Shown here piece after piece: positions 16,605-57,134 of a stretch of DNA of 64,000 nt. Made by a program: the position numbers and the translations under genes. Source of the DNA: Streptomyces drozdowiczii (GTDB lineage: Bacteria; Actinomycetota; Actinomycetes; Streptomycetales; Streptomycetaceae); the NCBI RefSeq assembly GCF_026167665.1, contig NZ_CP098740.1, positions 6,014,001 to 6,078,000 of the forward strand, in the 5' to 3' direction. Position 1 is the first letter of the stretch. Every line of letters begins with the position of its first letter. A model generated the notes under the pieces. It worked only from the letters and a program-made list of their open reading frames with translations, made no database searches and was not told where the DNA came from.

Positions 16605-16627
16605 TTGTCAGTGGCGCCCGGTAGGTT
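16605..16627 (+). promoter_or_regulatory. LexA-independent DNA-damage promoter of ung (RecA-NDp/PafBC type)
   Basis: TTGTCAGTGGC (16605-16615), six bases, then TAGGTT (16622-16627) matches the actinobacterial motif tTGTCRGtg-N8-TAnnnT exactly. This class of promoter is activated by PafBC after DNA damage. The transcript would start near 16634, about 34 bases before GTG 16668. Confidence 0.75.
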
Positions 16628-16667: not shown

Positions 16668-17351
16668 GTGACCGACACCGACCTGCTGCCCGAGTCCTGG
16701 CGCGGCGTCCTCGGCGAAGAGCTGCAGAAGCCGTACTTCAAGGAGCTCACCGAGTTCGTCGAGGAGGAGCGCGCCGCCGGACCGGTCTACCCGCCCCGGG
16801 AGCAGGTGTTCGCGGCCCTCGAAGCGACCCCGTACGACAAGGTGAAGGTCCTGGTCCTCGGGCAGGACCCCTACCACGGCGAGGGCCAGGGGCACGGCCT
16901 CTGCTTCTCCGTGCGGCCGGGCGTGAAGACCCCGCCCTCGCTGCGCAACATCTACAAGGAGATGCAGGAGGAGCTGGGCCTGCCCGTCCCGGACAACGGC
17001 TATCTGATGCCGTGGGCCGAGCAGGGCGTCCTGCTGCTCAACGCCGTGCTCACCGTCCGCGCGGGCGAGGCCAACTCGCACAAGGGCAAGGGCTGGGAGA
17101 AGGTGACCGACGCGGTGATCCGGGCCGTCGCCGCCCGCCCCGACCCGGCGGTCTTCGTCCTCTGGGGCAACTACGCGCAGAAGAAGCTCCCCCTGATCGA
17201 CACCGAGCGCCATGTGGTGGTGAAGGGTGCCCACCCCTCGCCGCTGTCCGCGAAGAAGTTCTTCGGCTCCCGCCCCTTCACCCAGATAAACGAGGCCGTC
17301 GCCCAGCAGGGCCACCAGCCCATCGACTGGCGCATCCCCGACCTGGGCTGA
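16668..17351 (+). CDS. ung: Uracil-DNA glycosylase, family 1
   Basis: 227 residues from GTG 16668 with GGAGG ten bases upstream. The water-activating motif G-Q-D-P-Y-H-G and the loop H-P-S-P-L-S are the two hallmarks of family-1 UDG, and the length is normal. It removes uracil from DNA to start base-excision repair, which matters in a genome this rich in C. The promoter is of the DNA-damage type. Translation upstream of 16668 would run into the promoter itself. Confidence 0.95.
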   Translation: MTDTDLLPESWRGVLGEELQKPYFKELTEFVEEERAAGPVYPPREQVFAALEATPYDKVKVLVLGQDPYHGEGQGHGLCFSVRPGVKTPPSLRNIYKEMQEELGLPVPDNGYLMPWAEQGVLLLNAVLTVRAGEANSHKGKGWEKVTDAVIRAVAARPDPAVFVLWGNYAQKKLPLIDTERHVVVKGAHPSPLSAKKFFGSRPFTQINEAVAQQGHQPIDWRIPDLG

Positions 17352-47749: not shown

Positions 47750-50412
47750 TCACCCGGTCCCCGCCCGGCAGGCCGTCTCCAGGCGTATCGCCTGCCGCAC
47801 CAGCTGGGTCGTCCCGCCGCGCGCGGCCGTCTCCGCGAGCCCCGGGACCGGCCCGGTCTTCGGAGGGCCGCAGCGCTCCGCGCACTCCGCCGCCACGGCG
47901 AGCAGATCGCTCAGCCCCCGGGGCGCCCGCTCCCGCGCCAGCAGCGCGGGCAGCACCGGCACCAGGAAGGACAGGACCGTCCGGTACGCCCCGGTCCCCG
48001 CAGCCGTCCGTGCCGCGTCCGCCAGCCGCCCCGGCTTGACCGAGTCCCGCTGGATCAGCCGCGCCAGCTCGCCGCCGAGCAGCTCCGCGTCCAGCCGGCC
48101 CCGGGCCGCCAGCACCAGCAGGGCGTCCACCGCCGAGAGCCGGTCCTCCGCGTCCCGGGCGCCGAGCCCGTACGCCAGGGCCAGATGCACCGCCCCGGCG
48201 GCGGGTCCGCCGGTCTCGGCGAGCGCGGGCAGCAGCCAGGTGGTGCCCCGCTGCTCGTCCACGCACGACGCGACGGTGGGCAGCAGCCACGCCGCCAGGG
48301 TCTCGCCGTCCTCGGGAGGACGGCGGTCCAGTGCGGCGACTCCACGAACCAGTGGTAGCAGCGGTGGTTGAGCGGGGCGTGCGGGCTGCCGAGCCAGTGG
48401 AAGGTCCGGGGAAGCCGCTGCTGGACGAGGCGGTTCCCGTCGGTGGACAGCAGCACCCGGCGCACCGTGGTCACCGTCTGCCGCAGCCAGTCCCGGGCTA
48501 CGGGCACATCCGTCTCCACATGCTGGGGCAGCACGGTCGCCACCGGCTGGTCCGCCCGGAGCCATTCCGCCAGCCGGTCGCCCTCCGCCGTGCCCAGCGC
48601 GGCGGCCCGCTCCGCGGCCTTTTCCTCGCCGGTGCGCCGCACCCGCAGCAGGGCCTGCGCGAAGTCCACCGGCCCCGCCTTGACGCCCAGCTCCCCGTAT
48701 CCGCGCAGCCGCTCCACCAGCTCCGGGGCGTCGATGGCCCCCGTGTGCCAGGTGGGCGTGGCCAGCAGATACGGCAGCGTGCCCGCCCCTACCACGGCGG
48801 CGGCCTCCCACAGGCGGGCGTACACGATCGCGTCGAGAGCCGCGTGGCAGCAGGTGCCCTTCGCCTCCCCGCGGGTCTGTCCGTCGTGGACGGCGCGCCG
48901 CGAGATCCGCCCGAGCAGCGAGGCCGCGACGAGGTGCAGGCCGTCGCCGCCGCGCAGCATCCGCCGGTCGACGTCGTCCCGGGGGGCCTTGGCCCACCAC
49001 TGTCCGGCGAGTGCGGACTCCAGGGCGGTGATCAGCTCCTCCCGGCCGCTGTGGGCCTGCCGGACCAGCCCGTCCAGCGCCCGTTCGAACGCGCTGACGT
49101 CCTCCTGGTCCGACCGGAGCAGGACCGCCGTCACCTCCTCGGTGAGCTCGGCCACGGACGCCGCCGGCGGGCCGAGCGGGCGCGGGGCCGGGGGCGGCGG
49201 CAGGATCTCCTCGTAGGCGGCGGTCCCCGGCGCGTCCTCCAGCAGCTCCCCGAAGACCGCGCGCGCCGTCTCCCGGTGCACCGGCGCCAGCAGCGAGGCC
49301 ATCCCGGCCGCCTCCGCGCGGACCTCCGGAGAGGCGGCGGGCAGGGCGCGGGCGGCCAGCTTGAGCGCCCGCTCCTGCGCGTCGGTGTCCGGATGCCCGA
49401 AGGCGTCCGCGATCACCGGCACCAGCTCGTCCGCCGCCGAAGGCTCCCGGCGCAGCACCTTGCCCAGGTGGATCAACTGGGCGCGCACCAGCTTCTTCTC
49501 CGTACGGAAGAGCACCCCACCGGAGACCTCCGCCAGCTGCCGGACCGACAGCGCCCCCCGCGCGTCGAGCCGGGCCAGCACCTCTTGGGCGTGTCCGGCC
49601 ACCGGGGAGGGCCCGTCGGCCGCCATCGCCATCCAGTCGGCGACCCGCGCCGCCTCCTCCTCGGCGGTCGGAGCGAGCCCCCGCACGACCAGCAGGCAGA
49701 AGCGGAGATCGGTGGGCTTCCCGCCCCGCAGCAGCCGCGCGGTGCAGCCGTCGAGCAGGGCCGCCCGGTCGAGCCGCCCCTCCGCCACCAGCGCGGTCAG
49801 CGCGGCCGGCCAGTACTCGTCGGGGGAGCCGCTGTCGACCCAGGCCACCACCGAGGGCAGCTCCGGCATGGTCAGGAGATGCGGCACGAGGACGTCGAGA
49901 CGGGCGTCCGCCCGCAACACATCGAGCAGGGGCTTACCGGAGCCGCCGTGCCATCGCGCGCTGTTGACCCGCTCCGCCCACGCCCGGACCATGCCGTCCG
50001 AGACGGGCAGCGGACAGCCCGCCCGGCGGGCCAGCTCCTCGACCAGCCGGTACTCCGCCTCGGACTCCACGGCGCGCGCGGCCAGCCGGCGGGCGAGATC
50101 GGCGAGCCAGTCCGGCTCGCGGTCGCCCAGCACCTCCAGGACCCACGGGTACGGCGAGTGCACCCAGTCCCGCATGTCCCTGGCGCCGAGCCAGGTCGCG
50201 CAGCCCGCCGCCCCGGTGTGGCAGCCCGCACCGGCCACCAGGATCGCCTTGCGGACCCGGGTGCGCTCGCCCCAGCGCCAGCCACGGGCCTCCTTGCGCA
50301 GCGCCTTCAACTCCTCCAGGGCCGCCTTGCGTCCGCCCCGGTCGAGCCGGGCCAGCAGGGGCCGGATGTCGTCCGTGCGGCCCTCGCGGACCGCGTCCAG
50401 CAGGGTGGTCAT
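47750..50412 (-). pseudogene. Large helical protein of the SWIM operon (DUF6493-like), frameshifted as written
   Basis: ATG ends at 50412, overlapping the SWIM stop (ATGA). Residues up to about 700 lie in one frame (M-T-T-L-L-D-A-V-R-E...N-H-R-C-Y-H-W-F-V-E-S-P-H-W). The remainder, from E-D-G-E-T-L-A-A-W, lies in another. One C restored in the G/C run at 48314-48316 joins them into about 887 residues. The sequence is alpha-helical with Ala/Leu-rich repeats; no catalytic motif is seen. I think it is the DUF6493 family found beside SWIM proteins in actinobacteria, from memory. The function is unknown. The shared damage-type promoter suggests a role in genome stress. Confidence 0.77.
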
Positions 50413-51782
50413 CGCGCACCCCCGGCGACCGCCGCGCCACGGCGGACCATCCGGACCGCGAGGGCGTGCTTGCACGGGCCCCGGCGGCCCCGGTAGTCCG
50501 CCCACCACTGGCAGGTGCAGCTCAGCGCCCCCGACCGCTCACGGACCTGGTAGCGCCGGTCGCCCGAACGCACCGCCGCCAGCTCGCCGTCCAGGACCAC
50601 CGCCCCCTCCCGGGCCAGCCGCCGCGCCGCGACCAGCCGGGGATTGTGCCGCTCGGCCCGGTCCGCGTCGTACGGCAGCTCGCGGTGGAAGTACGCGGCG
50701 TCCGCGAGGTCGTAGCCCACCCGGCCGGCCGTGCCCAGCCGGACCAGGGCGGCCCGGACCCGCTCCACCGGAAGGCCCGCCTGCTCCGCCAGCCGGTCCG
50801 GCTCGATCCGGGGCTCCCACGCCAGCAGCACCGACACCAGCTCCGCGTCGGCCGCCGCTTCGTCCGTGGCCAGCGCCTCCAGGACGCCGCCCTCGCCGGA
50901 GAAGCCGCGCGAGGCGTCGGGCGACAGCGTCAGCGTGAGCCGCATTCCGGGCAGCACGACCTCCCAGGCGCTCGCGGCGGCCGCGCCGTCGGCCGGCGGC
51001 CCGTACACGCGGAGCGCCGACGCGTACCGCAGGACCCGTTGCAGGGCGGTCAGCCGCTGCGGTCCGGGAAGGCAGACGGCACCGGGCACCGGCCTGGTCG
51101 TGGGCCGGAGCGTCCGCCCGGCGGGGACCACCCACCGGGCGCCGCGCGCGGCCGCCCCCGAGGACGTGGGCAGCGACCTCAGGAACCGTACGGCCTCCGC
51201 CGCCGGGAGCTCCGCCCGCAGGTCGAAGGCGGCGGACGCCACCTGCGCCTCCGCGAACCCCCGCAGCCAGCGGTCCGGCAACGGCACCTTCTTCTCCACG
51301 ACGGCACCGCCCGTCGTGGTCACCGCCATCTCGTCCGGGCCCACCCGCAGATGCAGCGGCTCGTCGCCGCCCATCCGGGACAGCGCCTCCCGCAGCGGAT
51401 GGTTCACGTCCACATTGGTGGTGCCGTGGCCCGTCTTCACGCCCTCCAGACCCTCGCCGAGCACGTCGAGCCGCGCGTACACCCCGCAGCAGCCGGAGAA
51501 CGACTCGAAGCGCAGCCGGTCCCCGTTGCCCGTCACCACCGGGTCCAGCGAGGCCGCCAGGGTCCGCTGGTAGTAGCGCGCGGCGGCGACGTCCGCGACC
51601 GCGAGCAGCCCCCGCGCCGCTATCTGCGGCGAGGCCAGGAACCCGGAGAAGAACCGGGGATGCGCCTCGGCGCCCTGCGGTGTGGAGCCGCCGGCCGTCT
51701 CCAGGCCGAGCGATCGCCCGGCCCCCGAGGAGGCCAGGACGGAAGGACGTGAGTAGGCCAGGGCCTGCACGGTTCGGGTCAT
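50409..51782 (-). CDS. SWIM zinc-finger protein
   Basis: 457 residues. The SWIM motif near the C-terminus reads L-S-C-T-C-Q-W-W...G-P-C-K-H, giving the CxC-xn-CxH zinc site. SWIM domains bind DNA, RNA or proteins. The N-terminal 380 residues are of unknown fold with several W and F residues in G-F-S-G-E-G-like loops. It is first in an operon with the large helical protein. The promoter is of the DNA-damage type and leaderless, so the ATG ending at 51782 is firm. Confidence 0.85.
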   Translation of the reverse strand: MTRTVQALAYSRPSVLASSGAGRSLGLETAGGSTPQGAEAHPRFFSGFLASPQIAARGLLAVADVAAARYYQRTLAASLDPVVTGNGDRLRFESFSGCCGVYARLDVLGEGLEGVKTGHGTTNVDVNHPLREALSRMGGDEPLHLRVGPDEMAVTTTGGAVVEKKVPLPDRWLRGFAEAQVASAAFDLRAELPAAEAVRFLRSLPTSSGAAARGARWVVPAGRTLRPTTRPVPGAVCLPGPQRLTALQRVLRYASALRVYGPPADGAAAASAWEVVLPGMRLTLTLSPDASRGFSGEGGVLEALATDEAAADAELVSVLLAWEPRIEPDRLAEQAGLPVERVRAALVRLGTAGRVGYDLADAAYFHRELPYDADRAERHNPRLVAARRLAREGAVVLDGELAAVRSGDRRYQVRERSGALSCTCQWWADYRGRRGPCKHALAVRMVRRGAAVAGGAR

Positions 51783-51788
51783 GGAAAA

Positions 51789-51811
51789 ACCGTAGAACCC
51801 ACCACTGACAA
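51789..51811 (-). promoter_or_regulatory. DNA-damage-type, leaderless promoter of the SWIM operon
   Basis: On the minus strand, TTGTCAGTG (complement of 51803-51811), eight bases, then TACGGT (complement of 51789-51794) fits tTGTCRGtg-N8-TAnnnT. The expected start, seven bases on, is the A of the ATG at 51782. The stretch CCGATTGTCAGTGG is identical to the one before the gene at 56700. Confidence 0.7.
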
Positions 51812-51837
51812 TCGGTCATCACCCCAGGTCAGCAGCG

Positions 51838-53284
51838 CTATTGGGCAAGGTCGGCCAGCGCCCGCACCCCGCGCGCGATGTCGGCCGGCGCCAGATGGGC
51901 GTAACCGAGGACGAGGCGTACGCAGCCGTCCGCCGGCCGCTCCGTCCCGTACTCGCGCAGCAGCCGCACCGCGACCCCGGCACCCGCCGCGCGCTCGGCG
52001 AACTGCTCGTCCGGGCCCCAGCGTCCGGGGAGCCGCGCGATGGCGTGCAGCCCCGCCGCGACCCCGCTCACCTCCGTGCCCGGGATGTGCTCGGACAGGG
52101 CCCGCGTGAGTACGTCCCGGCGCTCCCGGTAGGCGCGCTGACAGCGCCTCAGCTGACGGTCGTAGCCGCCGCCCTCCACGAAGTCGGCGAGCACCGCCTG
52201 TTCGAGGGACGGGTTGCCGAGGTCCATCATCCGCTTCCGCTCCACCAGTTCGTCGGTCATCGACGCGGGCGCGATCAGCCAGCCCAGCCGGAGCCCGGGA
52301 GCCAGCGACTTGCTGACCGAGCCGGTGTACGCGACGGATTCCGGATCGAGGCCCTGGAGGGCGCCGACCGGGGCGCGGTCGTACCGGAAGTCACCGTCGT
52401 AGTCGTCCTCGATCAGCAGCCCGTCCACCTCTCGCGCCCACTCCAGGAGCCGGCTGCGCCGGGCTGCGGAATACGCCACTCCGGTCGGGAACTGGTGGGC
52501 CGGAGTCGTCACCGCGGCCCGCACCCCGGAACGTTTCAGCGGCTCCAGGGCCAGGCCCTCCGCGTCCAGCGGGAGCATGGCGGTCGCCACCCCGGCGGAG
52601 GCGAAGAGCGCCGTGTGCTCCGGGCTTCCGGGGTCCTCCACCCGACCGTGCGCACCCCGCGCCCGTGCAGGACGAACCCGAGCAGCGTCGTCGCCTGCGC
52701 GACCCCGGAACACACCAGCAGCCGTTCCGGATCGGCGACCACCCCGCGCCGCCGCGTCAGCAGCGCGGCCAGGGCCACGCGCAGCTCCGGCAGACCGCGC
52801 GGATCCGGGTAGCCGAGCGCGCCGTGCGGCAGCCGGCCGAGCACCGAGCGGTGCGCGGCGGCCCAGGCGCTGCGCGGGAAGAGGGAGAGATCCGGCGTCC
52901 CCGGCCGGAAGTCGACCCGCACCCTGAGAGCGCGCGGCGCCAGATCCCGCGCACCGCCCGCCGCCGCCCGAGCCGACCCGCTCACCCAGGTCCCGCGCCG
53001 CGCCCGCTGCGCAGATAGCTCTCCGCGGTCAGCTGCTCGTACGCCTCGGTCACCAGACCGCGCGAGACCCTCAGATCGGCGGCCAGCTCACGGCTGGACG
53101 GCAGCCGCGTCCCCGGCGCCAGGCGGCCGGAGCGGACCGCCTCGCGCAGCGCCGACTGGAGCGCCCGGCCACGGCCGCGCGCCGGAGCCGACGCCACCGG
53201 AAGCAGCAACTCCCAGGCCGTCGAAGCGGACGCGCGGTCCGAACCGCTGCCACCGGAAGGCGAATTGGTCCCCGAAGCCGTCAT
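51838..53284 (-). pseudogene. MocR/PdxR-type regulator (GntR wing + aminotransferase fold), two frameshifts as written
   Basis: ATG ends at 53284. A GntR helix-turn-helix lies at residues 35-95 (L-Q-S-A-L-R-E-A-V-R-S-G-R-L). A class-I aminotransferase-like body follows, with the PLP lysine site G-S-V-S-K-S-L-A-P-G-L-R. Frame breaks at about 52992-52994 and 52641-52643 each need one G restored on the coding strand, giving 482 residues. It is divergent from an EamA transporter gene, a common MocR pairing. It probably activates that gene when PLP or an amino compound is bound. Both breaks look like sequencing errors. Confidence 0.82.
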
Positions 53285-56670: not shown

Positions 56671-56693
56671 TTGTCAGTGGGGGAAGGTTTACT
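56671..56693 (+). promoter_or_regulatory. DNA-damage-like, leaderless promoter
   Basis: TTGTCAGTG (56671-56679), eight bases, TTTACT (56688-56693). The -10 is one base off TAnnnT. The predicted start is the A of ATG 56700. The preceding CCGATTGTCAGTGG equals that of the SWIM promoter. Confidence 0.5.
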
Positions 56694-56699
56694 GACGGC

Positions 56700-57134
56700 A
56701 TGACCACCGCACATCACCTCCGCCTCATCGACGGGATGCGCACCCGGGAGTTCCCCGCGCAGCGCGTCCGGTCGGATTCGGGAGTCAGCGGTCCCGGTTA
56801 CCACACGGCGTTCCTGTACGTGGACGATGTCTGGGAGGAGGACGAGGCCGGCCGGCTGGAGCGCCGCGCCCAGTGCCTCGCGGACCACGAGGCACTGGTC
56901 ACCCTGCTCGGCAGCCGCTGGGGCGAGCCGCAGCTGGTCAGTCTGTTCAGCGCCCAGGAGCGGATGCTCGCCGGTGAGGAGATACCGCAGCCGTGGGCGG
57001 ACACGGTCGCGGGCTGCGAGTACCTGCGCCTCTGGTACATCGAGGAGCGCTGGATAGCGCTGGCCCTCTATCTGGAGGAGGGCGGCTCCGGCTGCGAGCT
57101 GAGCGTGGTCGTGACGGAGACCGACCCGCCCTGA
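56700..57134 (+). CDS. Hypothetical protein under a damage-like promoter
   Basis: 144 residues, acidic, no signal peptide. I see mixed alpha/beta sequence (F-L-Y-V-D-D-V-W-E-E-D, W-I-A-L-A-L-Y-L-E-E-G) without a known motif. The 3' end overlaps the mug gene on the other strand by 67 bases, so the two converge. The leaderless promoter is close to that of the SWIM operon, which hints at shared regulation. No function is known to me. Confidence 0.72.
   Translation: MTTAHHLRLIDGMRTREFPAQRVRSDSGVSGPGYHTAFLYVDDVWEEDEAGRLERRAQCLADHEALVTLLGSRWGEPQLVSLFSAQERMLAGEEIPQPWADTVAGCEYLRLWYIEERWIALALYLEEGGSGCELSVVVTETDPP

Follow-up and report, generated by a model that had tools for sequence, protein, structure and literature searches.

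Introduction

The closest described counterparts of the locus reported here are the mycobacterial PafBC regulon and the RecA-NDp genes of Streptomyces. In mycobacteria, single-stranded DNA activates PafBC, which reprograms the housekeeping polymerase (PMC11804915), and in M. smegmatis PafBC acts via the RecA-NDp motif (PMC6789036, PMC11804915). In S. coelicolor, one study describes a 5-fold rise of the RecA-NDp gene SCO6735 after UV, and a deletion of this gene that caused no damage sensitivity (PMC5087735). In S. venezuelae, a 2022 study of the SOS response included an initial search for the M. smegmatis PafBC motif and, given an apparent lack of motif conservation, left open the question of a PafBC-type response in Streptomyces (PMC9380542).

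Here, we analyzed a window of 64,000 nucleotides from Streptomyces drozdowiczii, that is, the whole stretch of DNA presented above. It contains a SWIM zinc-finger gene followed by an alpha-solenoid partner gene, and we consider it very likely that this pair is driven by a DNA-damage promoter of the RecA-NDp (PafBC) type located in the 55 bp upstream of the SWIM gene. The motif, its spacing, its conservation, the repair genes in its company and the presence of pafB and pafC are directly observed.

Results

On the minus strand, the gap from the MocR-type gene to the SWIM gene reads TTGTCAGTG-GTGGGTTC-TACGGT-TTTTCC-ATG. The upstream promoter element TTGTCAGTG, of the RecA-NDp type that PafBC reads in mycobacteria, lies at 51803..51811 (-), and an 8-nt spacer separates it from the -10 hexamer TACGGT (51789..51794, -). 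The bases TTTTCC (51783-51788, -) then lead to the ATG of the SWIM gene (51782-51780); the whole motif spans 51811..51789 (-) and leaves 6 nt between the end of the hexamer and the ATG. The initial annotation had placed TTGTCAGTG-N8-TACGGT at a leaderless distance before this ATG, and the exact match and the 6-nt gap bear this out. The SWIM upstream site showed zero mismatches to the general RecA-NDp motif, whose consensus for RecA-NDp/PafBC-type promoters we take to be TTGTCRGTG-N8-TANNNT. Since the 6 nt after the hexamer leave no space for a Shine-Dalgarno sequence or another ribosome-binding site, the SWIM mRNA is probably leaderless, provided that transcription starts at the usual distance.

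A LexA-like box was not detected within 300 nt of the SWIM start at up to 4 mismatches of 12, in a scan where the recA control region gave 3-mismatch sites. No sigma-70 type -35/-10 pair was found in 51600-52000. The latter result bears on the reading that the element is a constitutive, non-inducible promoter whose extended upstream box is conserved. In the M. smegmatis pafBC mutant, transcription from recA P1 falls under standard conditions too (PMC5656591), which indicates that such promoters have a basal activity. However, the missing -35/-10 pair and a box that is the one of damage-induced genes argue against a constitutive element, which we regard as very improbable.

The conservation of the site was analyzed in named Streptomyces loci, namely the 80 best of 304 relatives. 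The motif was present before the SWIM gene in all 80 of them (73 exact, 6 with one mismatch and 1 with two mismatches), at a distance of 6 nt from the ATG in 26 loci and of 7 nt in 54. S. griseus NCTC13033 (L025) is a case of the exact motif at 7 nt. The fixed motif columns carried 1.9-2.0 bits, the first T 1.5 bits and the majority of the flanking positions 0.1-0.5 bit, the spacer and the six positions immediately upstream being conserved to some extent; the T, the A and the last T of the -10 hexamer were invariant in 80/80 loci. When all 21,296 candidate starts of the same 80 loci (ATG or GTG opening a frame of 150 codons or more, on either strand) were scored at up to 2 mismatches, 80 matches were obtained, all at SWIM, and 0 at the 21,216 other starts. 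Only 13 of the 80 loci were found to carry mocR upstream of SWIM; this gene is therefore not part of the conserved unit, and the motif is not carried by a frozen neighbourhood.

Further loci gave the motif in 29/29 cases (26 exact, 2 one-mismatch, 1 two-mismatch), 9 of which duplicate the 80. A more divergent set was made of 43 loci from the order and class searches, with identities of 46-76%, leaving aside the other order-search matches and three weak or fragment class-search matches. Of these 43 loci, 38 retained a site at a distance of 6-8 nt from the start (19 exact, 13 one-mismatch, 4 two-mismatch and 2 three-mismatch). The motif was missing in a paralogue (L183) and in the four most divergent loci (L195-L198), and two of these five (L183/L243 and L195/L239) still carry the partner gene. 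A named Nonomuraea copy carries the motif with one mismatch at a distance of 7 nt, and three Streptomyces plasmid copies kept no good site (a 3-mismatch site in place in L252, a 3-mismatch site out of place in L250 and none in L249). The presence of the motif before SWIM homologues of relatives had been proposed as a check in the initial annotation, and the three sets of loci answer it in favor of the claim. The SWIM gene itself is patchy: within the order, 83 of 197 genomes gave a match, and within the class 41 of 394.

These data also bear on a chance resemblance. The window alone holds 3 motif matches at up to 2 mismatches and 10 of 100 shuffles reach the same number, so that the window by itself is no proof, which comes from the genome and the relatives. 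With 80/80 SWIM genes against none of the other starts, and with the motif retained in most divergent loci, chance is refuted and its probability is practically negligible.

At the scale of the host genome (7.39 Mb, single contig), the exact motif TTGTCRGTG-N8-TANNNT was found at 27 sites, while 0.1 were expected from the window base composition over the whole genome and both strands. Up to one mismatch, there were 95 sites, compared to 3 for the same pattern read backwards. All 27 exact sites were read (25 fetched and 2 within the window), and repair or replication genes stand behind 10 of them: recA, a UvrD-like helicase, dnaX, a DnaN paralogue, MGMT, uvrB, a RecD2-HHH protein, ruvC, rarA/mgsA and ung. 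The other 17 comprise both SWIM genes, a Shedu nuclease, an ECF sigma factor, DUF2797, GNAT, HAD and YCII genes, an ABC permease, a weak LAGLIDADG match, a leaderless 395-aa family-less protein (L108) and six sites without a nameable gene (L086, L087, L088, L090, L102, L109). Sixteen of the 68 one-mismatch sites were also read (14 fetched, 1 in the window and 1 beside the second SWIM gene). Five of the 14 fetched ones, which were picked mostly for an intact TANNNT and are thus not a random sample, precede genes for an endonuclease III-like, a RecB-like PD-(D/E)XK and a RadA-like protein, an AlkZ-like glycosylase and a dGTPase. An ATG or GTG lies 6-7 nt past the motif at 14/27 exact sites, SWIM gene included, where 5% would be expected (P ~6e-12); at one of the 14, L088, the frame is only 75 aa long.

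Two further sites lie in the window. The second exact motif (16605..16627, +) stands 40 nt before the uracil-DNA glycosylase gene (GTG at 16668) and provides an internal positive control. A GGAGGT just before this GTG points to a leader that contains a ribosome-binding site, in contrast to the 14/27 sites of leaderless type. A one-mismatch motif with TTTACT as -10 (56671..56693, +) ends 6 nt before the ATG at 56700 of a gene for a 144-aa protein (56700-57134) without a Pfam family. In many one-mismatch sites, TTGTCAGTG is intact and the mismatch falls in the -10 (CANNNT, GANNNT, TTTACT); these sites are possibly weaker or differently used members.

Other observations were made on the motif outside the window. 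One exact copy lies before the gene of an ECF sigma factor that also carries a SnoaL-like domain (L092, G000:C1:2655550-2657300), reminiscent of the mycobacterial SigG. The genome G017 contains 78 exact copies, many of them near-identical TTGTCGGTGGYGGCRTCTAGCAT. Several of the eight copies read there (L201-L208) have an upstream stretch in common; L207 and L208 precede long ORFs, which we take to resemble the DUF222/13E12 family, and the other six have no recognisable gene. These copies look like a dispersed repeat carrying the damage promoter.

Concerning the regulator, the host genome has 5 WYL matches, two of which are adjacent pafB- and pafC-type genes (L124: WYL+WCX; HTH_PafC+WYL+WCX). 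A search for the Pup ligase (pafA) near pafBC covered one L124 ORF and gave no match in it, an overlapping 453-aa frame (261-1622) being left out. A PafC domain was present in 15 of the 16 genomes tested and exact motifs in 12; all 12 genomes with exact sites have the PafC domain, and G508 has neither. G286, G363 and G355 possess PafC and no exact motif, their SWIM sites showing 3, 3 and 2 mismatches, respectively. Taken together with the zero mismatches and the retention of the motif in relatives, the presence of pafB and pafC supports the earlier assignment of the site to the PafBC/RecA-NDp motif. Another regulator, ClgR or a different WYL protein, might read the motif instead: the RecA-independent promoter of mycobacteria is reportedly a target of ClgR, as discussed in PMC5656591, and three WYL matches of the host genome lie outside pafBC. 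We consider this improbable, since PafBC works through the motif in M. smegmatis (PMC6789036, PMC11804915), and since PafC accompanies the exact sites in every genome that has them.

The SWIM gene (50409..51782, -) encodes a zinc-finger protein of 457 aa, with a winged helix at residues ~306-376 and the SWIM finger at ~406-451. The metal ligands CxC...CxH (C422, C424, C437 and H439) are invariant in 33/33 proteins, and the finger matches PF04434 with 20.8 bits (cut-off 19.6). The winged helix before the finger was matched by PF17782 in 30/33 and by PF13412 in 24/33 (E up to 0.5), and residues 306-376 gave structural matches to the winged helix; the N-terminal part of the protein was poorly modelled.

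The partner gene (47753..50412, -) is of the DUF6493/DUF7824/DUF7825 alpha-solenoid type, about 900 aa long in relatives, and its ATG at 50412 overlaps the SWIM stop codon (ATGA). A partner homologue lies downstream of SWIM in 78/80 loci, and the contig ends there in the other two. The copy of one relative (L016) was modelled as an all-helical solenoid (pLDDT 87). The intact L001 copy matches DUF6493 (PF20103, 28.1 bits for a gathering threshold of 25), DUF7824 and, weakly, DUF7825; the 817-aa frame of the window reaches only 22.9 bits for PF20103. This frame (48055-50508) was rejected as the natural partner gene, since the start should be 50412 and the homology runs past the frame end. In comparison with six relatives, in which the partner is intact, the frame is disrupted near 48313-48316, and beyond this point the homology continues in a different frame to ~47753. 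Upstream of SWIM, the MocR-type regulator (51838..53284, -; PdxR-like C-terminal part 51838-52713) is also frame-disrupted here, and its length is 476-486 aa in 8 of the 9 relatives looked at. Two disruptions within 5 kb suggest sequence errors, and assembly errors are the probable explanation for both, with gene decay as the alternative. If the partner disruption is real, this strain makes an altered partner.

An exact site at G000:C1:2730125 precedes a second SWIM gene, followed by DUF5691. This second operon is divergent from genes for MoxR (AAA_5), DUF5682 and a VWA_CoxE protein (L126, G000:C1:2722000-2741000), and 56 of 60 genomes of the order gave a match to its SWIM gene. In the 30 best-scoring loci read, the motif is exact and separated from the SWIM ATG by 7 nt (30/30). 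On the MoxR side, a divergent one-mismatch site (CANNNT for TANNNT) was observed in 25/30 loci, and only 4-5-mismatch sites in the other five. The two SWIM proteins have only the zinc finger in common, and no profile similarity links the window partner to DUF5691. That two otherwise unrelated SWIM operons stand behind one promoter type is the best hint of a tie between the SWIM domain itself and damaged DNA; it also suggests that proteins with this domain are a recurrent component of the damage response in actinobacteria.

The promoter could be linked to damage and the pair nevertheless be a module of phage defence, for which DNA damage would be the sign of an infection. The PADLOC model SWIM_XIII (PDLC02972) matches the SWIM protein over residues 72-447 with an E value of 1.6e-51. 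The gene of the Shedu (SduA) anti-phage nuclease starts 6 nt after an exact motif (L096, G000:C1:3678750-3680500); a defence gene thus stands under a damage-type promoter. In addition, the SWIM gene has a patchy distribution and plasmid copies exist, one of them beside an integrase and a toxin-antitoxin pair. By contrast, no PADLOC model matched the partner (L001 copy), a reverse transcriptase was not detected in the host genome (0 RVT_1 matches), and no relatives were found in phage records, nor did a search of viral contigs by two peptide patterns detect any. The other members of the regulon, mainly repair genes, also speak against defence, which we hold to be unlikely and yet the chief alternative in view of the PADLOC match, of Shedu in the regulon and of the patchy, partly plasmid-borne distribution.

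Discussion

We propose that DNA damage would lead to single-stranded DNA and thereby to the activation of PafBC, a step shown in mycobacteria in the papers cited above. PafBC would then let the housekeeping RNA polymerase use TTGTCAGTG instead of a -35 box, and transcription would start at the SWIM ATG or one or two bases from it. The leaderless message would give the SWIM protein, and the solenoid partner would follow via the ATGA overlap. The transcription start site, the induction by damage and the dependence on PafBC are in this scheme predictions made from sequence.

Because the regulon company is mainly repair, the pair is most likely a DNA-bound repair or tolerance complex, the defence module being its main rival. 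We see about even chances that SWIM and its partner form a complex on damaged or stalled DNA, in which the winged helix and the finger would hold DNA and the solenoid would serve as a scaffold. More tentatively, SWIM proteins, each with a helical or ATPase partner, may constitute a recurrent and overlooked arm of the PafBC response. The window pair would then form a complex that holds DNA as a mediator or protects forks, possibly including a clamp-like middle domain, hinted at for residues 40-300 of the SWIM protein; SWIM-DUF5691/MoxR-VWA would be a second, ATP-driven machine controlled by the same switch. This elaboration is equally tentative. In two Proteobacteria, Diaphorobacter and Asticcacaulis, a DUF6493-type gene lies next to SWIM in the same order and with overlapping ends, and neither a class-typical SOS box nor a RecA-NDp site was found upstream of these two pairs. 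The activity must therefore make sense without PafBC too.

With this promoter, two uncharacterised SWIM operons gain a testable role in genome stress, and the genes behind the motif sites provide a candidate list for damage-response testing. Exact sites were counted in three Streptomyces genomes (27 in G000, 16 in G035 and 26 in G152). The leaderless geometry, or a narrow mycobacterial motif, may explain why the motif was missed earlier in Streptomyces. In the literature, which was only partly searchable, we found no paper on the SWIM zinc finger and DNA damage in Streptomyces, on PafBC and SWIM, on DUF6493, on the SWIM domain and MoxR, or on the meaning of SWIM_XIII. A SWIM gene could, however, already figure in one of the early RecA-NDp gene lists.

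Compared to known systems, the SWIM_XIII model, which we take to belong to type XIII retrons, shares with the window protein the similarity over residues 72-447. The SWIM accessory protein of such retrons is thus found here, and their reverse transcriptase is absent and the partner unrecognised. For eukaryotic SWIM proteins such as Shu2/SWS1 and ZSWIM8, no similarity was found to the rest of the window protein. The SWIM-DUF5691/MoxR-DUF5682-VWA locus, which we assume to resemble E. coli yehLMPQ, has both the SWIM finger and the RecA-NDp motif in common with the window pair. The closest likeness is with the RecA-NDp promoters of Streptomyces recA and SCO6735 and with the mycobacterial PafBC regulon, where motif, spacing, repair company and pafB/pafC are alike. 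SCO6735 is UV-induced, and induction is predicted for the SWIM operon; the SWIM site differs in preceding an uncharacterised SWIM/solenoid pair, with no LexA-like box beside it. Overall, the promoter type is already known, and the two SWIM operons appear to be new members of the regulon rather than a new kind of promoter.
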